Of a DNA stretch of 64,000 bases, positions 24,467 to 39,066 are shown one piece after another. Positions within the stretch are counted from its first letter, which is position 1. The number at the start of each line of letters is the position of its first letter. The stretch covers positions 4,154,001 through 4,218,000 of the forward strand of contig NZ_AP024235.1 of assembly GCF_016756315.1 (NCBI RefSeq). Direction: 5' to 3'. The DNA comes from Alteromonas sp. KC3. Lineage in GTDB: Bacteria; Pseudomonadota; Gammaproteobacteria; Enterobacterales; Alteromonadaceae. The position numbers were made by a program, and so were the translations under genes. The notes under the pieces were generated by a model. That model ran no database searches, was not told the origin of the DNA, and worked only from the letters and a program-made list of their open reading frames with translations.

Positions 24467-25546
24467 TTAGCCTGCCAACCTATCTAGCAATGCCATCACA
24501 CGATGACTGGCCTGCTCCATTTCTAAGAGCTTGGCATCAGCCTCGGCAGTATTGCCATTAAGTTTTGCTTGCATAGCAGCGATACCGTGTTTGTGAACTG
24601 CTGCATGCGGCGCTTCCAACTCTCTAAATGCAGCGTTCTGTGAAACTGGCTTGCCTGAATTTTCACTATACCAACGGCCAAGACGACAGCTTGTATGATC
24701 GCCAAAGTCAGATACCGCTTTTTGGCTGTAGCCACACAACACCGCATATACGTCGGCTTTCCACACAACGTGATCAAGCTTCACAGTTTGAATAAATGTG
24801 CTCAACGCGCCATCGTTAATGGTGTTTTTCATGCTGTCACAATGCTGAACCATGCTTTCATAGCTACCGTTCAGCTCATTGATACCAGCCTCAAGCTGCT
24901 CATTGTTACCACGTAATTCATTAACACCTGATACCGCTTTTGACGTTGACTGGATGATGCCGTTAACGAGTTCAGATACTTCTGTTGCCGACTTATTGGT
25001 TTCAGTAGCAAGTGCTCGTACTTCATCTGCCACAACACTAAACCCACGGCCTGCATCACCAGCTCGCGCCGCTTCAATTGCCGCATTAAGTGCAAGTAGG
25101 TTTGTTTGGTCAGAAATACTGGTAATTGTGGTTACAAATTTATTGATGTTGTCAGCCGTTGTCGACAGGCCAGAAATACGTTCGCTCATGCTGCCCATTT
25201 GAACATTAAGACCGCTCATGTCACTCACAATTTTCTTTAACGTGGCTGCTGACGAGCTAAAAATGTCATTAATGTCGGCACTAGATTGATTCTCAGCATC
25301 TATGCGTTCATATGTGGCCAACACAGTTTCGCGGATACCTGCCATTTGCGACAACGCATCTACCGCACATTTCATCACAACAGAATCGTTCTGCACGCTT
25401 TTTTGCGCAGCCGATTCAACAGATGCCAAAAGCTCAGCATTTTCTGCTTCTAACGCTGCAACTTTGTCCATAGCGTCTTGTACGCGCGCTTCTAGCTGAC
25501 GAACCTGCGCTTCTTTTTCTTCATATTTACTGCGAGAAACAAACAT
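24467..25546 (-). CDS. Soluble chemoreceptor with C-terminal CZB (zinc-binding) domain
   Basis: A 359-residue cytoplasmic receptor: N-terminal coiled coil (about 1-45), a short MCP signalling hairpin with [24 protein letters not shown] (about 150-175), and a C-terminal chemoreceptor zinc-binding domain (about 240-355). The CZB ligands are present: His in [17 protein letters not shown], Cys in CRLGRWY, and two His in the HAAVHKHG region. In known CZB proteins zinc sensed here responds to zinc level or to HOCl. A flagellar sigma-28-type promoter lies upstream, and downstream are the histidine kinase and the PAS receptor. Confidence 0.92.
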
Positions 25547-25750: not shown

Positions 25751-26131
25751 TTATTTCGGCAAAAGATGGGGGACTAGAGGTGGACGTCTCGCAGAAACTT
25801 TAGGGCCATACCATGTCGACAAATAATCGAGAATATCTTCTTCTGCATCGCCCAGTGGCCACAACTTTTGGGTTTCTTGCATCCAACGTATGGTTTCCAG
25901 CCAACGTTCTCTGCTCATAGCGTTTTGCGTGATAAGTGATGGTGAGTGACACGCACTGCAGTGGGCTTGAACCAGACTCATACCCTTAGCTACTACAAGC
26001 CCAGATTGAGGGTCGATGCTTTGGGTTGAATTGACTATCTCCGCGCTGTTGTCGGCGGCCACAGCATGCACTGACGGGGACAGTAAACACAGCGTTAATG
26101 TACAAACATAGGAAAGAATGCGAAAAGTCAT
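25751..26131 (-). CDS. Monohaem cytochrome c subunit of sulfite dehydrogenase (SorB-like)
   Basis: A 126-residue periplasmic cytochrome c: a signal peptide (to about residue 23, ...VHA) and one haem site CSACH (58-62). The small size and placement two bases after the sulfite oxidase gene match SorB, the electron acceptor subunit of the SorAB sulfite:cytochrome c oxidoreductase. It is the last gene of a five-gene minus-strand operon that begins with an aldo/keto reductase. Confidence 0.85.
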   Translation of the reverse strand: MTFRILSYVCTLTLCLLSPSVHAVAADNSAEIVNSTQSIDPQSGLVVAKGMSLVQAHCSACHSPSLITQNAMSRERWLETIRWMQETQKLWPLGDAEEDILDYLSTWYGPKVSARRPPLVPHLLPK

Positions 26132-26133
26132 GC

Positions 26134-27432
26134 CTACACCACTTTAAGTGCTATACGGTGACATGCATTATTCAAATACCCTTTAGGGTTCCATCCTGGT
26201 AACACCATGGGTTGCGCTTTACCTTGCTTATCTACAGCTTTCGCCCACACCTCGTAATACCCTTGCTGAGGAAAGCGAAGCTTAGCGTCAAAGTGTTGCC
26301 ATGCGTGTTTATTTACCGGGGCGGTCAAGGTAGTAGCTTGCCACGTTTGCCCAAAGTCGATAGACACGTGTACGTTATCTACCGCACTCTCACCACACCA
26401 TGCATGCCCTCTTATTTTCAGTGGTTCAGACACATTGTGGGTACTTCCTGATTGAGGGAAAGTGATGAGCGATTTCACCGGCATCGCTTCAATAATACAC
26501 ATGTCTTCGTCGGCAACAGACGCACCCGGCGCTACAGGTTTGCACGGGACGCGGTAGGCTTTACCAAGCATTTTCGCGCCGTCGTGAACTTTATTGCGTA
26601 CGACTATTTTTTTAAGCCACTTTCCGGAAGTTGAAGCGGGCCAGCCGCCAAACACCAATCGCAGCGGGTAGCCATTCATCAGCGGTAAGGGCTCACCATT
26701 CATTTCCCACGCTATTAACGACTCATCTTCCATGGCTTTATGAATAGGTACACCTCGGGATATTGCTGCTTTCCCTGGTGTGCGACTCAAGTGCTGATCG
26801 TCTCCGTAGTAGCCAATGTACACTGCATCTTCTTTTACACCGACAGCCTGTAGAACGTCTTTCAAACGAACTCCCGTCCATCTAGGACACCCTACCGCTC
26901 CCGTTGTCCACTGATTACCTGTTGCAGCGGGAGAGAATTCTGCACGACCATTGCCACCACACTCTAATGTAAGTTGATAGGTGTAATGCGTAAATTCGGC
27001 TTTCAACTCGTCAAGGGTGAAGGTTCGCGACTGCTTTGCAGATTCCCCTTCGATTGTAAGTGACCATGAATTGGCATTGGGGTTTGGTGGCACTATGCCG
27101 TTGTTGCGCACGAAAAAGTGTTTTGCAGGCGTAACCGCATCGTCAAGTAAATGCGCGGGCGTTTCTGCATTGACAGGTCGGTCATTGAGTACAACTAATC
27201 CTTCCTTACCTTCAATCGTAAATGGCGAGTCACTTTGGGCAAACGCAGCGGGAATAAGACCTGCTGGCATAAAGCGTCCGTATACCACTTCGGCCCCAAG
27301 TAAAATAGATAACCCTTTTAGTCCCGAGAGAAATCCTCTACGTGTTAACGTATCACTTGTTCTGCCAAAAACAGCTTTGTCAGCTTCTATAGGATTTTCA
27401 GCATAAAGCTCATGAAGACCGCGCTTTTTCAT
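26134..27432 (-). CDS. Sulfite dehydrogenase molybdopterin subunit (SorA/SoxC-like)
   Basis: A 432-residue oxidoreductase of the sulfite oxidase family. It has a twin-arginine signal (TRRGFLSG, about residues 30-37) for folded export, the molybdenum-ligating cysteine in LTLECGGNGR (about residue 158), and a C-terminal dimerisation domain (from about 325). It oxidises sulfite to sulfate in the periplasm and passes electrons to the adjacent cytochrome c. The ATG at 27432 is preferred (GAGGT seven bases upstream) over an in-frame GTG one codon earlier. Its position in an operon with a desulfonating-type dioxygenase suggests it detoxifies sulfite released from an organosulfonate. Confidence 0.93.
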   Translation of the reverse strand: MKKRGLHELYAENPIEADKAVFGRTSDTLTRRGFLSGLKGLSILLGAEVVYGRFMPAGLIPAAFAQSDSPFTIEGKEGLVVLNDRPVNAETPAHLLDDAVTPAKHFFVRNNGIVPPNPNANSWSLTIEGESAKQSRTFTLDELKAEFTHYTYQLTLECGGNGRAEFSPAATGNQWTTGAVGCPRWTGVRLKDVLQAVGVKEDAVYIGYYGDDQHLSRTPGKAAISRGVPIHKAMEDESLIAWEMNGEPLPLMNGYPLRLVFGGWPASTSGKWLKKIVVRNKVHDGAKMLGKAYRVPCKPVAPGASVADEDMCIIEAMPVKSLITFPQSGSTHNVSEPLKIRGHAWCGESAVDNVHVSIDFGQTWQATTLTAPVNKHAWQHFDAKLRFPQQGYYEVWAKAVDKQGKAQPMVLPGWNPKGYLNNACHRIALKVV

Positions 27433-27455
27433 CACTCACACCTCTTAACCAAACA

Positions 27456-27493
27456 CCACAATGACAGTGTGGTAAACACCACGCTTATTGTGG
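27456..27493 (-). repeat. Two-tier inverted repeat between yeiH-like and sorA-like genes
   Basis: CCACAAT / ATTGTGG encloses GTGGT-AAAC-ACCAC. The element fills the 70-base gap before sorA within the operon. It could stabilise or cut the mRNA and set the ratio of upstream and downstream products. There is no T run. Confidence 0.45.
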
Positions 27494-27505
27494 GCGCCAA
27501 AACGC

Positions 27506-28510
27506 CTAAATTAGAAACAAATAACCCAGAATGAGTAACGCTATCCAAAGCGTTTCTGTGATAATCATAACGATGGGTAAGACGCCAACTTCGGCCAGCT
27601 TTCCTAAATTAGATTTCATGCCAATAGCGGTTATCGATACCACCAAAAAAAAGCGAGAGACCTGTGTACCGGTTTCAACCACCACAGTGGGCAAGGACAC
27701 AAAACTGTTCAACAGCATCAATAAGATAAAGCCAACAAGAAACATTGGCATTTTGGGAATATCCCCCTCACCCGCATTGGCGTCTGCTTTATAAAAGCGT
27801 TTAATCACCAACATCATGATAAGTACCACCGGCATCAGCATCGCGACGCGAACTAACTTTGTCAGTGTCGCCATATCACCAGCACTATCAGACACTGAAT
27901 AACCCGCGCCGACCACCTGGGCGACATCGTGAATGGTGCCCCCAAGAAATATGCCGGCGTCGGTATCGTTCATGCCTAATTGAGCAGATAAAATGGGGTA
28001 CAAAATCATGGCAATTGTGGACATGGCAGTCACACCAATAACGGTCAGTAAGGTATCTCGCTCGTGATTTTGGCCTTTAGGAAGAATAGTGGATATCGCC
28101 AGAGCCGCAGAAGCGCCACAAATGGCAACAGAGCCACCCGTTAATGCCCCGAAGCGTTTTTGTAAGCCTAGCGACTTTGCAAGAAAAACACCCAAAACAA
28201 TCGTTGTAAAAATTGCAAAAGCGAGCATTAAGGCAGTTTGCCAGCCGAGTACTGCAAGATCGCCAAGCGCTATCCGCAGCCCCAGTAAAACAACACCGGC
28301 TCGCAACAATGTGCTGGCGGTAAAATCAATGCCACACGCACACGGCGTATCGTTCTGATAAAGAAACGACACTGCCATACCTAGCAGTAGCGCAAATAAC
28401 ATGGCCGGCGCATTGTAATGCTCACTAAGAAAGAGTGCTGCCATTCCTGTAATGGTTGCAATACCCAACCCCGGCCAAATATTTTTGCACTTAACGGCTA
28501 AGTCATTCAT
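27506..28510 (-). CDS. YeiH/UPF0324 family transporter (putative sulfate or sulfite exporter)
   Basis: A 334-residue, all-membrane protein with about ten hydrophobic segments, matching the UPF0324/YeiH family (pfam Cons_hypoth698). Family features visible are LLRAGVVLLGLRIALGDL, the glycine- and serine-rich GGSVAICGASAALAISTILP segment and GGTIHDVAQVVGAGY. Family members occur next to sulfonate degradation genes and are proposed to export sulfate or sulfite; this is not well tested. It lies five bases after the TauD-like gene and upstream of sorA, which fits moving sulfite or sulfate out of the cytosol. Confidence 0.85.
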   Translation of the reverse strand: MNDLAVKCKNIWPGLGIATITGMAALFLSEHYNAPAMLFALLLGMAVSFLYQNDTPCACGIDFTASTLLRAGVVLLGLRIALGDLAVLGWQTALMLAFAIFTTIVLGVFLAKSLGLQKRFGALTGGSVAICGASAALAISTILPKGQNHERDTLLTVIGVTAMSTIAMILYPILSAQLGMNDTDAGIFLGGTIHDVAQVVGAGYSVSDSAGDMATLTKLVRVAMLMPVVLIMMLVIKRFYKADANAGEGDIPKMPMFLVGFILLMLLNSFVSLPTVVVETGTQVSRFFLVVSITAIGMKSNLGKLAEVGVLPIVMIITETLWIALLILGYLFLI

Positions 28511-28515
28511 TTCAA

Positions 28516-29523
28516 TTATCGCTCTGAGGCTACCAATGCCACAAGAACTACGCGCTTTCTTTCGCCCGAATAGGGACGTCGACCATGCATTGCGCGATAG
28601 TTATCAACAATGGCTACATCACCGTCTTGCCACTCTAGGTCAAAGGTAAAATCTTCTGCCAATTCAGACACTCGCTCTAAGCCGTCTTTTGGAATAGCAC
28701 TGCCGTCACCAAATGTAATGGCTGACGAGGGTTTTTCTCGAACACCTTTCCACCCCATGTAGGCAGCAATTAGCTGATTGTAAAACACTTCAGCACCATC
28801 ATCTAACTCGATCACCGCAGGTAAGACAGGAGTTACCGCTCTTAAGCTTCCATCTTCCAGCCACTGCCAGCTGTAGCCTAACTCTTGTAGTTTCGCTTCA
28901 GCTTCTTCAAGTGTCTCAACACTTAGTGTGCTTTTCCAACTTCTACCTTGGCCAGAATTAGCGTCATTCGCAGCCGGCATTGTTGTGGTGTATTTCAACC
29001 CTTTTTCTTTGAAATCGCTGGCAAGTGATGGGTTCTCTACCTTTAGGGCTTCAAACAATTTGTCCGAACGACAAAGAGGCGTAGCACCGCCCTGCTCTGC
29101 AGCAGACTGACAAAAGAAAAACAGCTTGCTGGGCGAAATGGGAGTTTGCGCCATTTCGTGATGCAGGAAAATCTCTACGTCTTTGGGCGCTTCGTTGGCG
29201 GTAAAAACACGTTCGGTAAAGTTGATGCGTACCGCGTTAGATAAAGACTCTTGATAAGTGAAATTTGGATAGCCAAACCCAGCAGAAAAAACGTCAAAGG
29301 CCTCAGCGGAGTCAATGGGGAAGCCGCGAAACAGAAGTGCTCCAGCCTTGGCAAGCTTGGCTTCTAGCTCAGTTTGATTGGCGTTTACAAATGCCACTGT
29401 ATCAGCCACTGTTTTGCATTGCCCGTTATTTACCACGATTTGAGGAAACACATCATCATTGTAATGATGCTGAGTGGCGACATTTGCATACTCAACACTT
29501 GAGGTCTGGTTGACGTTTTTCAT
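28516..29523 (-). CDS. TauD/TfdA-family Fe(II)/2-oxoglutarate dioxygenase
   Basis: A 335-residue dioxygenase of the TauD/TfdA (clavaminate synthase-like) superfamily. The iron triad is visible as H121-x-E123 (FLHHEMAQTP) and H313 (AMHGRRPY), with R324 as the likely 2-oxoglutarate-binding Arg. Glu in place of the more usual Asp in the HxD motif is seen in this sub-branch. TauD enzymes hydroxylate the carbon bearing a sulfonate, releasing sulfite. With SorAB, two sulfur-oxyanion exporter candidates and an aldose-reductase-type enzyme in the same regulon, a sulfonated sugar is the attractive substrate, but this is inference. AGGAG lies six bases before the ATG. Confidence 0.87.
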   Translation of the reverse strand: MKNVNQTSSVEYANVATQHHYNDDVFPQIVVNNGQCKTVADTVAFVNANQTELEAKLAKAGALLFRGFPIDSAEAFDVFSAGFGYPNFTYQESLSNAVRINFTERVFTANEAPKDVEIFLHHEMAQTPISPSKLFFFCQSAAEQGGATPLCRSDKLFEALKVENPSLASDFKEKGLKYTTTMPAANDANSGQGRSWKSTLSVETLEEAEAKLQELGYSWQWLEDGSLRAVTPVLPAVIELDDGAEVFYNQLIAAYMGWKGVREKPSSAITFGDGSAIPKDGLERVSELAEDFTFDLEWQDGDVAIVDNYRAMHGRRPYSGERKRVVLVALVASER

Positions 29524-29532
29524 GTTTTACTC

Positions 29533-30486
29533 CTAGTCGTAAATAGGGTGGAAGCGATTGAAAGCAGCTTCACAGAAGTGACCTGGGTCATTAAATCTGC
29601 GGTTAACGTTCAATCCAGAAATTGCCTGCATTTCATCATCGCTAAGGGTGAAATCGAACAATGCAAGATTCTCTTTCATACGTTCAACTTTCGACGTTTT
29701 AGGAATGATGGCATTGCCACGTTGAATCCCCCAACGCAACACAATCTGCGCTGGTGTTTTACCGTGGGCCTTTGCCGCTGCTTTTACGACACTCTGCTCT
29801 AACACAGACTCGGTTTGATCAGCCATTTCTAATTCCAAATACGATAAAGCGCCAAGTGGTGAGAACGCTGTTACAGCAAGGCCATAATCTTTGGCTAAGC
29901 GAATTAACCTTTCTTGAGTTAGGTAAGGGTGTGATTCAATTTGTAGCATAGCGGGCTTGATGCGCGCGTAGGCCATAAGATCATGGATGAGGCCTGTATT
30001 GTAGTTACACACACCAATCTGCTTTACTTTACCTGCATCAGCTAATGATTCCATTGCTCCCCACGTCTGATAAAGCGGGACAGGGGCAAGTTCCATCTTA
30101 GGCTCGTCGGCCTCAGGGTCGGCAAACCACTCTGGCGGGTAGCGTGTCTCAATAGGGACAAATTTTTGCGCTATAGGAAAATGGATAAGATACAAATCAA
30201 GATAATCCAACTGCAAATCAGCCAGTGTTTTGTCTAGTGCCAACTCCACATGCTCTGGCGCATGAAAGGTGTTCCAGAGCTTTGACGTTATCCAAAGTTC
30301 ATCTCGGGTACAAAGACCATCTTCAATGGCGCGCTTAATACCCGCACCCACCTCTTTCTCGTTGCCATAATCAGACGCACAATCTAAATGGCGATAGCCC
30401 GCCTTAATCGCTTCATAAGCAGTATCGGCACAAATCGCCTTATCTACTTTCCAAAAGCCAAAGCCTACTTCTGGTATTTTATCCAT
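29533..30486 (-). CDS. Aldo/keto reductase, aldose (xylose) reductase type
   Basis: A 317-residue NAD(P)H-dependent reductase with the AKR barrel motifs: GYRHLDCASDYGNE (catalytic Asp and Tyr), the catalytic Lys in WITSKLW, the His in LYLIHFP, and the cofactor-binding IPKTSKVERMKENL. The C-terminus RRFNDPGHFC resembles fungal xylose and plant aldose-6-phosphate reductases. The start is taken as the ATG at 30486 because an operator and promoter occupy the DNA upstream (30546-30590), which would lie inside the gene if the ATG at 30561 were used. It is the first gene of an operon with the TauD-like dioxygenase, where it could reduce the aldehyde left after desulfonation. Confidence 0.88.
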   Translation of the reverse strand: MDKIPEVGFGFWKVDKAICADTAYEAIKAGYRHLDCASDYGNEKEVGAGIKRAIEDGLCTRDELWITSKLWNTFHAPEHVELALDKTLADLQLDYLDLYLIHFPIAQKFVPIETRYPPEWFADPEADEPKMELAPVPLYQTWGAMESLADAGKVKQIGVCNYNTGLIHDLMAYARIKPAMLQIESHPYLTQERLIRLAKDYGLAVTAFSPLGALSYLELEMADQTESVLEQSVVKAAAKAHGKTPAQIVLRWGIQRGNAIIPKTSKVERMKENLALFDFTLSDDEMQAISGLNVNRRFNDPGHFCEAAFNRFHPIYD

Positions 30487-30545
30487 CGCGTATTCAACCT
30501 TAGTTATCTGTTGTTGAGATAAAGTAAGTTTATCACTACACTTTA

Positions 30546-30559
30546 GTCTTGTATAAGAC
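30546..30559. promoter_or_regulatory. GntR-type operator in front of the reductase-dioxygenase-SorAB operon
   Basis: GTCTTGTATAAGAC differs by one base from the perfect palindrome GTCTTATATAAGAC found upstream of the GH31 gene. It begins two bases after the -10 element at 30567-30562, so a bound repressor would block transcription start. Confidence 0.65.
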
Positions 30560-30561
30560 AT

Positions 30562-30590
30562 AAGTTATTATAGCGACCAAACATTGTCAA
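30562..30590 (-). promoter_or_regulatory. Promoter of the aldo/keto reductase operon
   Basis: TTGACA (30590-30585), a 17-base spacer and TAACTT (30567-30562) on the minus strand. The same boxes with the same spacing, followed by the same AT and operator, occur in front of the GH31 gene. The wider gap (30487-30777) contains only this and a weak stem-loop after gntR. Confidence 0.6.
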
Positions 30591-30777
30591 CAAAGTGTTA
30601 ACAAACTTATTGAGATACGACAAAAAGCCGCAAGTGGAGCCTAGATAGCTACAACTTGTTGGGCGATAGAATGTGACTGAGAGTAGGTAGAGAGGAATAA
30701 CTCGGCTAATCAATAGGATTTGACCAGCCGTTTATCAAAGACAAACACAGAATCATTTTGAAGAAATGATGAACGCG

Positions 30778-31527
30778 TTAATCCAACTCAACTTGATAGT
30801 GATAATGATCGGTGCGGCATTTACTCTCTCGATACTCGATAAGCTTACCGTCGATAGATTCGGTTACGCGCGTGACTAAAAGTAATGGTGCACCTTTTTC
30901 AACAGAAAGGCTTTTTGCATCACTCTTTGTTGCCAGCACAGCTTTGATACTGTCTCGCGTTTTAAATACGGTTTGGTTGTAATCAGTTTGGTAGAAGTGA
31001 TAAAGCGTATGCGGAATATCTTCGCGCTTATCAATATCGGCGAATAACTTACTTGGTAGATAAATGGTTTCTAACATACAGAATTCATTATCTAAAATAC
31101 GTCTTCGCTTAAGCTTTATCACTTTGTCTTTTGCTGAAATAGCCAGCGCTTCTTGAACTGCTTCAGTAGGCTCAATTTGTTCTTTACTGAGCAACTCTGC
31201 TTTTGGCAGGTCAGCACCTTTGCCATCAGCTTGCAGAGGAAAAAAGCGAAAGAGTGCATCTTGGGCGGTGTGCTCAGACACGAAGGTACCGACGCCTTGT
31301 CGACGGGTCACAATTTTTGTATCAGTGAGCAACGTAAGCGCCTTTCTCACCGTTCCCTGACTCACTTTAAATTCGTCGGCAAGTTTAAATTCACTGGGTA
31401 ACATCTCGCCAGGTTGCCACCTACGCTCTACAATAAGTTGCTTTATATACTCGGCAACCTGTTGGTACAAAGGCTGGAAAGCAAGACTTGGACCGCCAAG
31501 CTTGTGGTCAAATTGAGATGTCGACAT
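30778..31527 (-). CDS. GntR family transcriptional regulator with UTRA domain (HutC subfamily)
   Basis: A 249-residue regulator: an N-terminal winged helix (about residues 17-85, PLYQQVAEYIKQLIVERRWQPGEMLPSE and VSQGTVRKALTLL) and a C-terminal UTRA ligand-binding domain (about 105-245, ending YRESKCRTDHYHYQVELD). HutC-type members usually sense sugars, amino acids or their phosphates and repress neighbouring genes. It sits at the centre of the putative sulfonated-glycoside block. Palindromes GTCTTATATAAGAC near three flanking transcription units are its probable binding sites; none is obvious at its own promoter. Confidence 0.9.
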   Translation of the reverse strand: MSTSQFDHKLGGPSLAFQPLYQQVAEYIKQLIVERRWQPGEMLPSEFKLADEFKVSQGTVRKALTLLTDTKIVTRRQGVGTFVSEHTAQDALFRFFPLQADGKGADLPKAELLSKEQIEPTEAVQEALAISAKDKVIKLKRRRILDNEFCMLETIYLPSKLFADIDKREDIPHTLYHFYQTDYNQTVFKTRDSIKAVLATKSDAKSLSVEKGAPLLLVTRVTESIDGKLIEYRESKCRTDHYHYQVELD

Positions 31528-31627
31528 GAAACCGTAACCTAATGCTTATTATTCTGTTGTTATATCATACACAAGAGTTATAGCGCATTTTTGATTTAAA
31601 TCACATACATCGTAGGAATTACACTAG

Positions 31628-32380
31628 ATGCTACTGGAAACACTCGTGACCATGTTTGCCCTGTTAGGTCTCGCTACCGTACTACAAACGCTTAGCGGCT
31701 TTGGGTTTGGCTTGATGGTAGTATCTAGCTTTACGTTATTTAATATTATGCCGCTGACAGCCACCACGTTTTTAGTCAGTTTCTTGAGCCTATTTAACTC
31801 TGTATCGCTTGTGATTAAGAACACACACCAAGTGAACAAGCGTGCCTTCTCAATAATGTTGTTAAGTGGTGTGCCATTTATGGCAGTCGGCTATGCGTTA
31901 TTGGAGTATCTCTCTAGCAACATGACAACTTGGCTAAACTTATTACTCGGTATTGCCATACTCAGCTGTTGTTTGTTGCTTTTGATTAAAAGAACAAAAG
32001 CGCCCGCTTCTGGCCGAGACTCTGGTTTTGCGATAGCCGGCACTGTTGGCGGGCTTTTAGGCGGGTTGTTTTCGACATTTGGCCCTCCTGTTGTTTTCCA
32101 GTGTTATAGACAGAATTGGCCAATCAACGAAATTCGCTTTACGTTATTAGCGGTATTTAGTGTTACCGCACTTATTCGCCTATGTATTGTTCCTTTTGGC
32201 ACACTACCTACTTATGACGTTGTGATCGCCTGCGCTTGTTCCATCCCGGTCATCCTGATTTTTACTCGCGTTGGTCGATTACTTGCCGCTAAAGTAGAAC
32301 CTAAAACCGTTCGCGCCATCGCCCTTGCTATGCTTGCTATCAGCGGCCTGACTTTAATCGTACAAAATGCCCCTACCTAA
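31628..32380 (+). CDS. TSUP family (TauE/SafE) transporter
   Basis: A 250-residue membrane protein with about eight hydrophobic segments and the TauE/SafE family layout: an N-terminal QTLSGFGFGLMVVSSFTLF segment and the repeat GTVGGLLGGLFSTFGPPVV in the second half. Such proteins export sulfite, sulfoacetate or related anions. It starts 100 bases from the divergent gntR. With TauD- and SorAB-like genes close by, sulfite export to the periplasm is likely. AGGA lies ten bases before the ATG. Confidence 0.87.
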   Translation: MLLETLVTMFALLGLATVLQTLSGFGFGLMVVSSFTLFNIMPLTATTFLVSFLSLFNSVSLVIKNTHQVNKRAFSIMLLSGVPFMAVGYALLEYLSSNMTTWLNLLLGIAILSCCLLLLIKRTKAPASGRDSGFAIAGTVGGLLGGLFSTFGPPVVFQCYRQNWPINEIRFTLLAVFSVTALIRLCIVPFGTLPTYDVVIACACSIPVILIFTRVGRLLAAKVEPKTVRAIALAMLAISGLTLIVQNAPT

Positions 32381-32459
32381 CACCAATCCATATAGGCGAT
32401 TGTCTTTTCAGCAGCGCTCACTGGCTTTTAGATTATTGTTATAAAATACCAAATGCACA

Positions 32460-32488
32460 TTGACACCAAAGTTACATTTCATTAACTT
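32460..32488 (+). promoter_or_regulatory. Promoter of the GH31-symporter unit
   Basis: TTGACA (32460-32465), a 17-base spacer and TAACTT (32483-32488), directly abutting the operator palindrome. It copies the layout in front of the aldo/keto reductase operon. Confidence 0.65.
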
Positions 32489-32508
32489 ATGTCTTATATA
32501 AGACATAA
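32487..32508. promoter_or_regulatory. Perfect 22-bp palindromic operator of the GH31 gene
   Basis: The palindrome has core GTCTTATATAAGAC (32491-32504), flanked by TTAT and ATAA, and overlaps the -10 element. It ends 14 bases before the GH31 start codon. GTCT...AGAC dyads are typical of HutC-type GntR proteins. Confidence 0.75.
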
Positions 32509-32522
32509 AGAGTAGTGTACTA

Positions 32523-34592
32523 ATGAGCAATGCCTTTAACACAGTAGAGCCAGACTGGAACAGCATAGAACCCGCGGATATTGTCCAGACACCTTATTTA
32601 GCAAGTGATGATATGCTTGTTGTACCTACTCAATATGGTCAACTTAAGCTATCAATCAGTCAGTTTGGTCTGCGTATTCAAAACACTGATGACGACCAAC
32701 ACGTCTACGGCATGCTCACTGGCAAGTGTGAAAATGAGACACTGGTATTGTCTGGCGATAAAGATCACTGCACATTACTTGGTGGTGACTATCGTCTCGA
32801 GTTGTTCGCTTCTCCGCTTCACTTTAAGCTCTACAAAAACGATGAACTTGTACAGCAAAGTGCGACTGATGGGCATTTTGTGCGACAGCACCGCCTTCCC
32901 CCTTTTGCTAAAACTGATGGTCAATGGATTGTGTGTCTTGAACTTGGCTATGATGAAGCGGTATACGGCCTTGGGGAAAAATGGGCTAAGCTGGACAAAC
33001 GCGGCCAGCTCGTTCGGTCATACAATCATGATGCGCTCGGTGTGAATGCCGAAAAATCTTATAAAAACACACCATATGCGTGGAGCCCGCAAGGCTGGAA
33101 TTTATTTATCCATACCCCTGCGCCTGTTACTCACGGTGCGGGTTACGCCCTATGGTCGCAGCGCGCTTATGTGTGCGTTGTTGAAGATGCACTATTAGAT
33201 ATGTTCCTTTACCACGAGGCGACACCAGCTAAAAGCATTCATACTTACAGTCAACTTACCGGCTTCGCTCCTACACCACCGACATGGAGCTTAGGCGTTA
33301 TTCTCTCAAAAGCATATTACAAAGACGCCGAAGAACTCTTGGCAGTTGCACGAGAAGTGCGCGAGAAAGAAATGCCTTGTGACGTAATCACCTTAGATGG
33401 CAGAGCGTGGCAGGATACTGATACGCGCTTCGCTTTTGAGTGGGACCCGAAACGTTACGCAGATCCAAAACCCGTCATTGACGAGCTAAAAGCGCTAGGC
33501 TTCAAGATTTGTGTGTGGGAATACCCGATGATTTCGGTCAAAAACCCACTCTTTAAAAAAGCAGCAGACAACGGTTGGCTGATTAAAGATAAGCGAACGG
33601 GTGAAGCCTATCGCTATGAGTGGGATTTAAGCCCGTTTGGCGAAGTGCTTACGCCCCTTCCCGACTCAGGTATTCTGGACTTCACGCACCCAGAGGCCTA
33701 CGAGTTTTGGCGAGAGTCACATAAGCCTTTGTTTGAGTTGGGTGTCGATATGATTAAAGCCGATTTTGGTGAGCAAATCGAAGATGACAACATGCTTTCA
33801 TACAGTGGCGACTCAGGTAATCGCCTACATAATGTTTATAGTAAGTTGTACAACCAATGCGTTTATGAGGCTGCTCAGAAATATTGTAAAACCGGCCCCT
33901 TTCTTTTTAGTCGTTCAGCGTGGACAGGAAGTCAGCGCTATCCTTCACAATGGGGAGGCGATCCGCAAGCTGATTGGCACGGCCTCTCGGCGAGTATCCG
34001 AGGTAGTTTGTCTTGGGGCATGTCAGGCGGTCCTTTTTTTGCCACTGATATAGGCGGCTTTTATAAAGATACTCGCGATGCAGAGCTATATGTGCGCTGG
34101 ACTCAAGCTTCTGTATTCAGTGCTCACATGCGTCTTCACGGCATAGGCCCTCGCGAACCCTGGTCGTATGGCGACGCTGCGTCAGCCGCTGTGTTTGAAG
34201 CATTGAAGCTGCGCTACCGATTAATTCCCTATTTACAAAAAACAGCCGAGCAAGCTTCAGTATCTGGCTTACCAGTGCAAAGAGCTATGGCGTTGGCATT
34301 TCCCGACGAACCGTTAGCGCATGCTTTCGAACAGCAATTTATGTGTGGCGATGACCTGTTGGTTGTACCCTGTGTCGTACCCGGTGGCAAAATAAAGTAC
34401 TACTTACCCAAGGGCGAATGGGTGCGCCTTGGCACGAATGAGGTGTTAACCGGTGGCGATTATAAAGAAGCCATACTGGCGCTAAATGAAATGGCAGTGT
34501 TTATACCCAAAGGTAAGCACATTACTTTTGGACCAGAGGTTCAACACACCGATATGGACATGTCTGACACCACTGTGTGGCCAGCGCAGTAG
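32523..34592 (+). CDS. GH31 family alpha-glycosidase (alpha-xylosidase/glucosidase or sulfoquinovosidase type)
   Basis: A 689-residue, signal-less and therefore cytoplasmic GH31 enzyme. An N-terminal beta-sandwich (about 1-235) precedes the catalytic barrel. The nucleophile is D414 (MIKADFGEQ) and the acid/base D480 (SQWGGDPQADW); RLHG and DIGGF motifs are also present. The overall sequence is closest, from memory, to YicI-type alpha-xylosidases and related alpha-glucosidases. E. coli sulfoquinovosidase YihQ binds sulfonate through an Arg and a Trp three residues on; here the aligned segment is TRFAFEW, keeping the Arg (R302) but with Phe at the Trp place. The substrate therefore stays open. 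The gene opens a unit with the symporter, behind a GntR-type operator. Confidence 0.9.
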   Translation: MSNAFNTVEPDWNSIEPADIVQTPYLASDDMLVVPTQYGQLKLSISQFGLRIQNTDDDQHVYGMLTGKCENETLVLSGDKDHCTLLGGDYRLELFASPLHFKLYKNDELVQQSATDGHFVRQHRLPPFAKTDGQWIVCLELGYDEAVYGLGEKWAKLDKRGQLVRSYNHDALGVNAEKSYKNTPYAWSPQGWNLFIHTPAPVTHGAGYALWSQRAYVCVVEDALLDMFLYHEATPAKSIHTYSQLTGFAPTPPTWSLGVILSKAYYKDAEELLAVAREVREKEMPCDVITLDGRAWQDTDTRFAFEWDPKRYADPKPVIDELKALGFKICVWEYPMISVKNPLFKKAADNGWLIKDKRTGEAYRYEWDLSPFGEVLTPLPDSGILDFTHPEAYEFWRESHKPLFELGVDMIKADFGEQIEDDNMLSYSGDSGNRLHNVYSKLYNQCVYEAAQKYCKTGPFLFSRSAWTGSQRYPSQWGGDPQADWHGLSASIRGSLSWGMSGGPFFATDIGGFYKDTRDAELYVRWTQASVFSAHMRLHGIGPREPWSYGDAASAAVFEALKLRYRLIPYLQKTAEQASVSGLPVQRAMALAFPDEPLAHAFEQQFMCGDDLLVVPCVVPGGKIKYYLPKGEWVRLGTNEVLTGGDYKEAILALNEMAVFIPKGKHITFGPEVQHTDMDMSDTTVWPAQ

Positions 34593-34609
34593 TTCACAAG
34601 GAGTAGTTC

Positions 34610-36340
34610 ATGGATATCACCCTCACCCTTTTATCATGCATCGCGTTTATGGCGCTCGTTGCTGTTATCTCTTACATGAAAACAAGAGGCGAGGTAAATA
34701 CACAAGATGGGTATTTCCTTGCGGGGCGGGGGCTGACTGGTACCTTTATTGCCGGCTCCATGATTTTAACAAACCTTTCAGCCGAACAACTTATTGGTCT
34801 CAATGGCTCGGCGTTTGGCTACAACCTAAGCGCAATGGCATGGGAAGTCACCGCGGGCGTTTCAACCATTATCATGGCGCTTATCTTTCTACCTCGCTAT
34901 TTAGCTGGTGCATTTTCAACGCTGCCAGAATTTTTACGCGATCGCTTTGACGATAGTGTGCGTCGAATGACAGTGGTACTGTTTATGGTTGGCTACTCGC
35001 TTGTCACCATTCCTTCTGTGCTTTACTCAGGCTCAATTGCGGTGCTTCGCTTATTTGATGTGCCAGGGCTTTTCAACATAAGTTATGAAGCCAGTCTGAT
35101 TCTCACAATTGTTATAGTTGGCACTATTGGTGCGCTTTACGCCATATTCGGCGGCCTTAAGGCAGTGGCAGTGTCTGACACTATTAACGGCATTGGCCTG
35201 CTTATCGTTGGATTACTTGTCCCTGTTTTAGGGCTTATTGCCTTGGGAGAAGGTAATTTCAGCGATGGTCTTGCAACCATTGCCACCACTGAAACGGAAA
35301 AGCTAAATGCCATAGGCAGCGCGGAAGACCCTGTGCCTTTTGGCACCATATTTACGGGTATGATTTTGGCTAACCTTTTTTATTGGGGAACAAATCAGTA
35401 CGTTATCCAACGAACGCTGGGTGCAAAGAACCTTGTTGAGGGTCAAAAAGGCGTTCTATTTTCAGGTTATTTCAAAGTGCTAGTGCCCTTTATGATGATG
35501 CTTCCCGGTGTCATTGCCTACCATCTTTATCAAGACGACAACTTACAAACTATCGACTTGGCATACCCGCACTTAGTGAAAGATGTGCTTCCACAATACC
35601 TATCTGGTTTCTTTCTAGCGGTTTTATTGGGCGCGGTCTTCAGCTCATTTAATTCTCTGCTTAACAGCGCGGCAACTTTGTTTTGCTTAGATGTCTACAA
35701 GCCACTTAAGAAAGATAAGGTAAGTGATGAAAAACTTATCCGCGTAGCCAAGATAACAAGCTTGGTTATCGCCATTCTTTCGTTTATTACTGCGCCGCTA
35801 TTAATGTTAGCACCCGAGGGCTTGTGGCAAATAATTCGAATATTCACCGGCTTTTATAATATTCCGGTTATCACTATTGTACTTGTTGGACTATTTACGA
35901 AACGCGTGCCAGCGCTAGCTGCCAAGGTCGCCATTGTGTTTCATGTAATCGCTTATGGTCTATTGAAGTTTGTTTGGGACGTTGAGATAAACTTCATCCA
36001 CATCTACGCCATTTTGTTTGCAATTGAGTTGGCCATTATGCTGGTTATAGGCAAACTCTACCCTATGGCGACACCATGGCAATTTATCCCCAAAGCCGAA
36101 GTTAATATGACGCCGTGGCGATACGCTATTCCTTGCGCTATTGTGCTTGTGAGCCTAATTGCCACACTCTACCTAATGTTTTCTCCTATCGGCTTTGTGG
36201 GAGGCTTAAGTAGTGCTTTCACTCCCATTTTATTAACACTTTGGGCCACTTGCTTTATTGCAGTGGGTGTAAGTCTCAAGTGGTGGAGAGTGAAGTATGA
36301 GAACGGCTTAAAGCGACTGGCGAGCGCCACGTCGCAATAA
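34610..36340 (+). CDS. Sodium:solute symporter (SSS/SLC5 family)
   Basis: A 576-residue inner membrane symporter with about 14 hydrophobic segments. The SSS family signs are the YFLAGRGLTGTFIAGSM segment after TM1, SAEQLIGLNGSAFGY, and GGLKAVAVSDTINGIGLLI in the middle. Members of this sugar-transporting branch (SglT-like) use the Na+ gradient to import glycosides. It lies 17 bases after the GH31 gene, with AAGGAG-like SD, and presumably feeds it a small glycoside delivered to the periplasm by the downstream TonB-dependent receptor. Confidence 0.92.
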   Translation: MDITLTLLSCIAFMALVAVISYMKTRGEVNTQDGYFLAGRGLTGTFIAGSMILTNLSAEQLIGLNGSAFGYNLSAMAWEVTAGVSTIIMALIFLPRYLAGAFSTLPEFLRDRFDDSVRRMTVVLFMVGYSLVTIPSVLYSGSIAVLRLFDVPGLFNISYEASLILTIVIVGTIGALYAIFGGLKAVAVSDTINGIGLLIVGLLVPVLGLIALGEGNFSDGLATIATTETEKLNAIGSAEDPVPFGTIFTGMILANLFYWGTNQYVIQRTLGAKNLVEGQKGVLFSGYFKVLVPFMMMLPGVIAYHLYQDDNLQTIDLAYPHLVKDVLPQYLSGFFLAVLLGAVFSSFNSLLNSAATLFCLDVYKPLKKDKVSDEKLIRVAKITSLVIAILSFITAPLLMLAPEGLWQIIRIFTGFYNIPVITIVLVGLFTKRVPALAAKVAIVFHVIAYGLLKFVWDVEINFIHIYAILFAIELAIMLVIGKLYPMATPWQFIPKAEVNMTPWRYAIPCAIVLVSLIATLYLMFSPIGFVGGLSSAFTPILLTLWATCFIAVGVSLKWWRVKYENGLKRLASATSQ

Positions 36341-36347
36341 GTCAAAC

Positions 36348-36365
36348 GCGAGGCGTCTGCCTCGC
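36348..36365 (+). terminator. Stem-loop after the symporter gene
   Basis: GCGAGGC and GCCTCGC pair around GTCT, followed by a pyrimidine-rich stretch TCCCCTT. It is a plausible but weak terminator. Confidence 0.5.
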
Positions 36366-36455
36366 TCCCCTTATCAATTTCTGCGCTGTATAGAAAAAAC
36401 ACAAAAAAATTAACATAGCGTTTGCAAATCACTTAACAATTGTTTAACTTAATCA

Positions 36456-36469
36456 CTCTTATATAAGAC
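36456..36469. promoter_or_regulatory. GntR-type operator upstream of the TonB-dependent receptor
   Basis: CTCTTATATAAGAC has one mismatch to the perfect palindrome before the GH31 gene. It lies 190 bases upstream of the receptor start. Apart from this, the second palindrome and the terminator, the gap 36341-36645 shows nothing. Confidence 0.6.
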
Positions 36470-36486
36470 ATTAGACGCAAGATAAC

Positions 36487-36500
36487 TCTTATACATAAGA
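36487..36500. promoter_or_regulatory. Second operator-like palindrome upstream of the TonB-dependent receptor
   Basis: TCTTATACATAAGA is a perfect half-site pair with two extra central bases compared with the other sites. Its centre is 31 bases from the first site, near three helical turns, which could let dimers interact. Confidence 0.4.
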
Positions 36501-36645
36501 CCGTTTATTTAAAATGAAAATCGCGTAGCGCTGTACCCTACGCCGCGACAATAAAAACCAAGCACTTTTTACCTTCATACGTTCACGCCTTGCTTGATAC
36601 CGAAGGATGAAAAGCGCGATAAGCGAAACACCCCTGGAGAACAAC

Positions 36646-39066
36646 ATGAAAACAAGAAGGTCGATTGTAAGCCGAGCGGTTACGCTCGCAATGACATCTG
36701 GATTACTCGTAAGTGCACATGGTTATGCGCAAGACGCAGAACAAACCGAAGCGCAAAACGATGAAAAATCATTTGAACAAATTGTCGTTACATCGCAAAA
36801 GCGCGTTCAGAGTATCAGCGATGTGCCTGTTGCTGTTTCGGTATTGCGCGGTGATCAAATTGAATCGGCCTTCGCCAATAATGTTGAAAACTTGCAAGCA
36901 CTTGTACCCTCAGTAAGCTTTAGAAAAGGAACAACTACCCGTAATTCAGCACTTACTGTTCGTGGTATTGGTACTATTTCATTTAGTATTGCCGCCGAGC
37001 CTAGTGTTGCTACAGTCGTTGATGGGGTTGTGTTAGGTCGTTCAGGCCAAGCATTTGCCGACCTATATGATGTGGATAGAATTGAAGTGCTACGTGGCCC
37101 GCAAGGAACGCTTTTTGGTAAAAACGCCTCTGCGGGCGTGGTTAACATTACCACAAAAGATCCTTCTCAAGAGCTGACTGGCAGCTTATCTACCGAGTTT
37201 TATCAAGACAATGAATATCGTTTAAAAGGTACCGTAAGTGGCGGCCTAACCGATGAGCTTTCAGCAAGCTTGACGTTATTCCAAGGTAAGTTCGATGGTT
37301 ACATCGACAATGTATATAACAACGAAAAGGTTAATGGCTACGATCGCGAAGGTGCTCGCGCAGTCGTGCTATATGAGCCCGCAGACGACTTGACCGTTAA
37401 ATTTATCGGTGAATTCTATAGTGCAGATGATGATTGCTGTGCTGATTTAGAAGGTCTCCCAAGTGGCAGAAACCCTGACTCTAAAGCTGCACCAAACAGC
37501 AATGGCATCGTTGATGGCGTTGCCGATATAGACCTTGACCAGCGTCGAATCGATCATGATTTTGAGTCTCGTACTATTGATGATCATTCAGCGTTCTCTG
37601 TACAGGTAGATAAAACGGTAGGTGACTACACGTACACATCAATTACTGCACAGCGTTCGTGGGAAAACACCGAATACCGAGAGGGTGACTTTACGTCTAT
37701 CGCGGGCGACAGCAACGAACCTGTATTTGGCGTACCTTTTCAATTACACGATGTAGGCCCTCAAGAGTGGAGCCAGTTTTCTCAAGAGTTCCGCGTAGCA
37801 TCTAATTTAGACGGTCCGTTTAATTTCTTGGCAGGCCTTTTCTACTGGAACATGGACTCTGAGCGTAACTTTACGCGTGATGCGAGCTGTCAAAATAACA
37901 ACGGGCAACTTGATCAAGCCCTTACATTTTACGCAGAGAATAATTTATCAGGTGACGCACTAAGCACTGCACTTGGTGATTTAGACGCTTATGCCGCTTC
38001 ACTAGGTGTAAGTTGTAATGCAAATGATATTGTCTCAGCAACGGCGTATATGAGCACCGAGTTTAATAACTGGGCACTTTATGGCGATGGCACCTATGAC
38101 ATTAGCGATGACATGCGTCTTATTTTCGGCTTGCGCTATACCGACGACGAAGTGTCTTACACCCATCGTCGTGTCAATAACGACGAGTATGGTCGCCGTG
38201 GCGTAGGTGTGCGTCCGGCTACTGAAAATACTGACACTCAGGGCAGCGTAGATGAAACCAATCTATCAGGACGTATTGGTATTCAATATGATGTCGCCCA
38301 AGGGCAGATGATTTATGGTATGTACTCTCAGGGTTATAAAGGCCCTGGCTTCAACGTTTACTATAACTTCAATCCCGCAAATGATGGGCGTCCTATCGGC
38401 GCAGAAGAGTCAGATGCATTTGAAATTGGGTACAAATACGCTAGCCGCGATGTACTATTTAACGTTGCATTATTTACCACTGACATTGAAGGTTTCCAAG
38501 CGAATAACTTCGATTGTTCAGACGGTGCCTGTATTACACGTTTAACCAATGCCGGAAATGTTACTACACAAGGTATTGAAGTTGATTTCATGTGGAATGC
38601 TACGGAAAACCTAACCTTAATCGGTGGTGCAGCTTACACGAAGGCAGAAATCGACGAATTTAATTGCCCGGTAGAAGTAGACCCTGACGCATGTACTGAC
38701 CGTTCAGGTCTTGATGTGCCGTTCTCACCTGATATGAAGTACTCCTTATCAGCAGAATACTTTATGGAAACGTCACACGGTTTTGACGTGTATTACAACG
38801 CATCATACGTGTATACCGATGAGCAATATTCTGACCTGCCAGGTAATACCGGTAACTTCAACCCCGCATCGCTGTTGCCAGATTACAACATGCTTAATGC
38901 GAGCATAGGCTTGTCGTTCAAAGATGATGCGTTCCGCGTGTCATTGATAGCTAAGAACTTGTTGGATGACAGCTATGCTACTACGTATAGCGGTGACAAT
39001 TTCCGTTACCAAATTCCGCGTGATGCAGACCGTTATTTCGGTGTGGCGTTTAAAGCACAGTTCTAA
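36646..39066 (+). CDS. TonB-dependent outer membrane receptor of the putative sulfonated-glycoside locus
   Basis: An 806-residue receptor: signal peptide (MKTRRSIVSRAVTLAMTSG... to ...GYAQ), TonB-box region EQIVVTSQKR (about residue 43), plug domain (DVPVAVSVLRGDQ, LRGPQGTLFGKNASAG) and a 22-strand-type barrel ending in a terminal Phe (FKAQF). It imports a ligand across the outer membrane using TonB energy. I use the ATG at 36646, with GGAG six bases upstream; an in-frame ATG at 36607 has no such site and would bury the signal peptide. Operators and neighbours tie it to the GH31 gene and symporter. A strong terminator follows. Confidence 0.92.
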   Translation: MKTRRSIVSRAVTLAMTSGLLVSAHGYAQDAEQTEAQNDEKSFEQIVVTSQKRVQSISDVPVAVSVLRGDQIESAFANNVENLQALVPSVSFRKGTTTRNSALTVRGIGTISFSIAAEPSVATVVDGVVLGRSGQAFADLYDVDRIEVLRGPQGTLFGKNASAGVVNITTKDPSQELTGSLSTEFYQDNEYRLKGTVSGGLTDELSASLTLFQGKFDGYIDNVYNNEKVNGYDREGARAVVLYEPADDLTVKFIGEFYSADDDCCADLEGLPSGRNPDSKAAPNSNGIVDGVADIDLDQRRIDHDFESRTIDDHSAFSVQVDKTVGDYTYTSITAQRSWENTEYREGDFTSIAGDSNEPVFGVPFQLHDVGPQEWSQFSQEFRVASNLDGPFNFLAGLFYWNMDSERNFTRDASCQNNNGQLDQALTFYAENNLSGDALSTALGDLDAYAASLGVSCNANDIVSATAYMSTEFNNWALYGDGTYDISDDMRLIFGLRYTDDEVSYTHRRVNNDEYGRRGVGVRPATENTDTQGSVDETNLSGRIGIQYDVAQGQMIYGMYSQGYKGPGFNVYYNFNPANDGRPIGAEESDAFEIGYKYASRDVLFNVALFTTDIEGFQANNFDCSDGACITRLTNAGNVTTQGIEVDFMWNATENLTLIGGAAYTKAEIDEFNCPVEVDPDACTDRSGLDVPFSPDMKYSLSAEYFMETSHGFDVYYNASYVYTDEQYSDLPGNTGNFNPASLLPDYNMLNASIGLSFKDDAFRVSLIAKNLLDDSYATTYSGDNFRYQIPRDADRYFGVAFKAQF

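Follow-up and report, generated by a model that had tools for sequence, protein, structure and literature searches.

Few organosulfur pools are larger than that of sulfoquinovose, the plant and algal sulfosugar. One route for its use, the sulfo-SDO (sulfo-ASDO) pathway with the proteins SqoD and SquF, was reportedly described by Ye et al. in 2023; in it, an Fe/2-oxoglutarate dioxygenase encoded beside an oxidoreductase yields sulfite and 6-dehydroglucose, which then becomes glucose. Passages of PMC9594981 report that searches for YihQ-bearing gene clusters led to three sulfoquinovose pathways, and identify SquF as an aldo-keto reductase (AKR; PF00248). A review (PMC12890257, in the parts available) places the sulfo-SDO pathway in gammaproteobacteria with excretion of sulfite and gives Marinobacterium aestuarii as the described organism, whereas passages of PMC13219744 give Marinomonas ushuaiensis. 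The families named in the available text of PMC13372026 (2026) are Oceanospirillaceae and Alteromonadaceae, and the same text calls the route characteristic of Alteromonadaceae. Here we analyse a stretch of 64,000 nucleotides (the window; NZ_AP024235.1, positions 4,154,001 to 4,218,000) from the single-contig, 4.56-Mb genome of Alteromonas sp. KC3, in which a gene block at 25751-39066 is very probably a further member of this known pathway. The original prediction, made from the letters of the window, had proposed such a route but considered it unusual in Alteromonas-like bacteria, which the 2026 paper contradicts.

A conserved gene block for probable sulfoquinovoside use

The block is highly likely to be a regulon devoted to alpha-sulfoquinovosides, among which sulfoquinovosyl glycerol is the likeliest substrate; these would be used by an SqoD-type sulfo-SDO route ending in sulfate. 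All ten genes named in the original prediction are present as open reading frames (ORFs) in the order that it gave, and Pfam supports nine of them (Oxidored_molyb and Mo-co_dimer; Cons_hypoth698, that is, YeiH; TauD; Aldo_ket_red; GntR with UTRA; TauE; three GH31 domains; SSF; and Plug with the TonB barrel). The leftward genes are that of the GntR regulator and, from a start of their own, AKR, dioxygenase, YeiH, SorA and SorB; rightward lie TauE, GH31 and a sodium symporter (SSS), followed by a TonB-dependent receptor. In the proposed scheme, the receptor (36607..39066, + strand), predicted to act in outer-membrane uptake, and an SGLT/YidK-type symporter (34610..36340, +) would import the glycoside, from which a cytoplasmic GH31 enzyme (32523..34592, +) would free sulfoquinovose. 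The 2-oxoglutarate dioxygenase (28516..29523, −) would oxidise C6, giving sulfite and 6-dehydroglucose, and the AKR (29533..30486, −) would reduce the latter to glucose. Sulfite would leave through TauE (a TauE/SafE-family putative sulfite exporter; 31628..32380, +) and/or YeiH (a PF03601-family putative sulfite/sulfate exporter; 27506..28510, −), to be oxidised to sulfate by periplasmic SorAB (SorA-like, 26134..27435, −; SorB-like, 25751..26131, −). Comparative evidence backs the predicted uptake, C-S cleavage, AKR reduction, and sulfite export and oxidation well.

The comparison set comprised the best 80 of 524 relatives' loci (1.48 Mb in total), some of them cut by contig ends. The same gene order was repeated in many loci of Alteromonas, Aestuariibacter and Pseudoalteromonas; this recurrence across genera, together with exact operator cores before three of its units, places the gene block beyond chance.

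A shared operator defines a single regulon

A palindrome with the consensus ATGTCTTATATAAGACAT was found 5′ of the AKR, GH31 and receptor units, through which a GntR/UTRA repressor (30778..31527, −) would control the three promoters. The consensus is a core extended by its flanks, exact before GH31 and partial before the AKR and the receptor in the window. A genome-wide search places the core itself, TCTTRTATAAGA, at just three positions, each of them within the block: as TCTTGTATAAGA before the AKR-dioxygenase-YeiH-SorAB unit (30547..30558), as TCTTATATAAGA before GH31 and the symporter (32492..32503, where the full 18-bp consensus is exact), and as TCTTATATAAGA before the receptor (36457..36468). 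When two mismatches were allowed, the window held 10 operator-like sites compared with 10.05 in shuffled sequence, so that only exact sites are informative; two such degenerate sites, between GntR and TauE (31565..31576, −) and at 36487..36498 (−), each with two mismatches, are by themselves not above chance.

Across the 80 loci, the pattern TCTT[AG]TA[TC]AAGA yielded 109 sites in 50 loci and its reverse a single one; TCTTATATAAGA alone accounted for 83 sites, whereas 29 permuted palindromes averaged 0.17 sites and none exceeded 2. Gene starts follow 106 of the 109 sites (AKR 46, receptor 32, GH31 24, GntR 4), and the remaining three lie before a receptor cut by the end of the stretch (L045), in a similar arrangement where no receptor was matched (L051) and near a contig end (L060). 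A site is present in 34 of the 35 loci that have a GntR gene. Within the genus, TCTTATATAAGA was found in 23/23 locus-bearing genomes and in 3/36 others (Fisher P=1.8 × 10−13, kinship ignored). In two genomes (G080 and G001) the second site is separated from GH31 by 18 and 35 kb, and a homologous receptor (59-60% identical) follows it within about 135 bp. Balneatrix and Pokkaliibacter likewise have sites before the AKR, and Arenicella loci contain them too. Taken together, the operator, which the original prediction did not mention, is the strongest evidence for a single regulon, and the block is a real one, since the operator is shared, clustered in the genome and conserved across loci. It offers a cheap marker for such regulons and for telling sulfoquinovosidases from true xylosidases. 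The available titles and abstract openings of the literature on sulfoquinovose and GntR do not name this operator. Separately, four cores lie away from locus genes (G030:C1:887376, G011:C1:431103, G085:C6:13018 and G014:C1:483592); their neighbouring ORFs match no pathway protein, and these cores are probably due to chance.

The dioxygenase and its reductase partner

The dioxygenase belongs to the TauD/TfdA family, and its Fe(II) facial triad (H121, E123 and H313) is invariant across 30 aligned rows, the HxE arrangement differing from the HxD of TauD. It is the sole PF02668 protein found in the genome. A homologue in Vibrio ulleungensis (L076; 58% identical) is likewise the sole PF02668 protein found there, and the species is scored as sulfo-SDO positive, by BLASTp to a sulfoquinovose dioxygenase plus oxidoreductase, in the available part of PMC13372026; on these two grounds the family is very probably SqoD. 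That paper, in the same part, calls the pathway where candidate genes for the dioxygenase and the oxidoreductase lie within 10 ORFs of each other; in the window the two are adjacent, 9 bp apart. The AKR, a predicted 6-dehydroglucose reductase, was present in 71 of the 80 loci and lay directly upstream of the dioxygenase in 69 by a strict gap test. Its ORF is open to 30561 and thus overlaps the operator at its start (30486-30561); Met26 (30486) is the likelier start. In a dioxygenase tree of 81 rows, the window's protein groups with those of Alteromonas species; the nine rows without an AKR do not form one clade (6 changes), and adjacency therefore sets no sharp family boundary.

The best sequence matches of the dioxygenase among solved structures (PDB 9yut, 9yuu, 9yuv, 9yuw and 9yux) are of an unnamed TauD/TfdA-like protein with no function stated, and 9yut is absent from the rows of the structure comparison (library to April 2026). 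No Marinobacterium or Marinomonas locus was among the best 80 of 524. We also observed dioxygenase-AKR pairs (56-59% and 59-60% identical) in metagenome bins of Planctomycetota and Verrucomicrobiota (L082, L083, L091, L092 and L098), in contrast to the listing of sulfo-ASDO for gammaproteobacteria only in the available text of PMC12890257. One dioxygenase gene (G604:C6:124691-125659) carries an in-frame TAA, from decay or sequencing error.

The presence of the dioxygenase was closely tied to that of the GH31 enzyme, although these counts are not phylogenetically independent. Among 59 genomes of the same genus, both occurred together in 23 and both were absent in 36 (GH31 orthologues were called at 80% identity or more; the remaining matches were at most 29% identical). 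The order sample gave the dioxygenase in 9 and the GH31 clade in 7 of 295 genomes, all 7 within the 9; in the class sample, 6 of 369 genomes had the GH31 enzyme, five of which (G000, G001, G492, G604 and G699, not G356) also had the dioxygenase.

A glycosidase likely to lie outside the YihQ group

That GH31 includes sulfoquinovosidases, on which the original prediction had relied, is not directly transferable to this enzyme, which lacks the sulfonate residues of YihQ and is nearer to YicI. Its profile scores for YicI and YihQ were 414 and 208 (399 and 172 in a second comparison), and the NCBIfam cut-off for YicI was not reached. At the positions of YihQ R301, W304 and Y508, which we take to be the sulfonate-binding residues, the multiple alignment gives D, F and F; over 42 GH31 rows, R301 is matched by R in one, and neither W304 by W nor Y508 by Y in any. 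The catalytic aspartate pair of retaining GH31 enzymes is kept: D414 (nucleophile) and D480 (acid/base) align with YihQ D405 and D472. Unlike YihQ, the clade has a conserved GRAWQDT..RF loop with two conserved arginines, one of which stands, in the window's protein, at about C307-F308 of YicI, where DCFW is replaced by DGRAW (G-R-A); the loop differs from that of YicI by one residue in length in the profile alignment. These alignments suggest a putative arginine pocket, in a region where the multiple and profile alignments place YihQ differently (at about residues 285-290) and where the predicted structure is weak, with a mean confidence score (pLDDT) of 63 for residues 291-300, 55 for 301-310 and 76 for 311-320. 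No signal peptide was evident by eye at the GH31 start, and the enzyme was therefore taken as cytoplasmic.

Passages of PMC13219744 describe the YihQ sulfoquinovosidases as monophyletic. We lean towards the view that the GH31 enzyme, a predicted alpha-sulfoquinovosidase, represents a second, convergently evolved lineage outside that group, in which arginines of the GRAWQDT..RF loop would bind the sulfonate at the position of C6 specificity, within an operator-marked regulon that spans several gammaproteobacterial families. If so, marine sulfoquinovose degraders would be missed by YihQ-based surveys; database sources label this type alpha-xylosidase. The literature searched was not found to describe the GH31 lineage, the operator or the SorAB ending, although the GH31 enzyme may already feature in Ye et al. 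2023 and in an article by Ma et al. (Nat Commun, 2025), the latter said to concern sulfoquinovosidases of cosmopolitan marine bacteria. One GH31 gene in the set (G010:C1:4524736-4526835) contains a single in-frame TAA, again from decay or sequencing error.

Sulfite handling and import

The SorA-like protein belongs to the sulfite-oxidase family, with the SorA structure 2blf as its best solved match; it has both molybdenum-cofactor and dimer domains, a Tat-like RRGFL motif at residue 32, and LECGG at 157 with Cys159 as presumed Mo ligand. Its partner, a c-type cytochrome subunit, has a CxxCH haem motif at residue 58. The two genes speak for mineralisation that runs all the way to sulfate within one cell. 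Sulfite genes recur in the 80 loci (YeiH in 43, SorA in 23 and TauE in 14). SGLT-type symporters, whose solved relatives are sodium/glucose cotransporters, occur in the window and in many Alteromonas loci, and TRAP genes take their place in a Glaciecola locus (L045:1166-4058) and in V. ulleungensis (L076:6473-8892). TRAP systems usually carry anions, and their use as importers thus fits a sulfonated sugar. No literature pairing a sulfoquinovosidase with TonB was found, and the available passages of a paper that mentions both sulfoquinovose and TonB-dependent systems do not link the two.

Compared with the sulfo-SDO system as described, the block may differ in its predicted on-site oxidation of sulfite (excreted, according to the available text of PMC12890257), non-YihQ GH31, TonB-dependent and SGLT-type import, and shared operator. 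It also resembles the sulfo-SMO cluster of Agrobacterium in the AKR, GntR-type regulator, exporter and GH31 genes around an oxygenase, which there is a flavin monooxygenase with an ABC importer rather than a 2-oxoglutarate dioxygenase with a TonB-dependent receptor and SSS.

Contrary evidence and alternative explanations

Besides the missing YihQ residues, several observations weigh against the proposed sulfoquinovoside regulon. A reversed control pattern also matched genome-wide, with two forward matches and one reverse; the argument for the operator is accordingly one of clustering and conservation, not of bare count. With identity of 50% or more and 300 bp of sequence upstream required, sites precede 50/71 AKR, 23/37 GH31 and 31/32 receptor genes, and they are absent from two Vibrio loci (L076 and L077). 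Of the 50 site-bearing loci, 16 show no GntR gene in the stretch examined, so that binding of the palindrome by the GntR protein is a prediction from association. The link to SqoD is indirect, passing through V. ulleungensis in one published species list, which may refer to another strain. The sulfite proteins fell below NCBIfam cut-offs (SorA-like, 245.5 of 600 bits; SorB-like, of 126 residues, 27.8 of 93 bits and no Pfam match; YeiH likewise below). Finally, a small (1.7 Mb) gammaproteobacterial genome, G356, has the operator, receptor, GH31 and TRAP genes (L117:8676-16328) with no dioxygenase found in an assembly that is 96% complete.

Were the GH31 enzyme an alpha-xylosidase or alpha-glucosidase, the block would serve a plain oligosaccharide and the dioxygenase and AKR would do something else. 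We consider this improbable, and rejected plain alpha-xyloside use, on four grounds: where the stretch examined holds no GH31 gene, as in Vibrio with TRAP genes, the dioxygenase is still accompanied by the AKR; a sulfite exporter and SorAB share the operon of both; the GH31 orthologue and the dioxygenase occupy the same 23 of 59 genomes; and an arginine stands about where YicI has C307-F308. No xylose gene was recognised in the block. The same chemistry could instead act on the glycoside of another sulfonated sugar, such as a sulfofucose-like one, which would suit a glycosidase not of the known YihQ type, and sulfofucose catabolism exists according to the available text of PMC12421959; abstract openings, however, describe sulfoquinovose as very abundant and sulfofucose as rare, and among the members of the dioxygenase family is the V. 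ulleungensis gene, which agrees with a published sulfoquinovose-dioxygenase call, so that we give this explanation still less credence. A general sulfonate-scavenging operon of taurine or alkanesulfonate type, serving sulfur supply, is hardly credible, and taurine use was rejected.

Adjoining the sulfite dehydrogenase genes of the block, at 24467-25546, lies a gene for a soluble protein of the methyl-accepting-chemotaxis type, as judged by eye.
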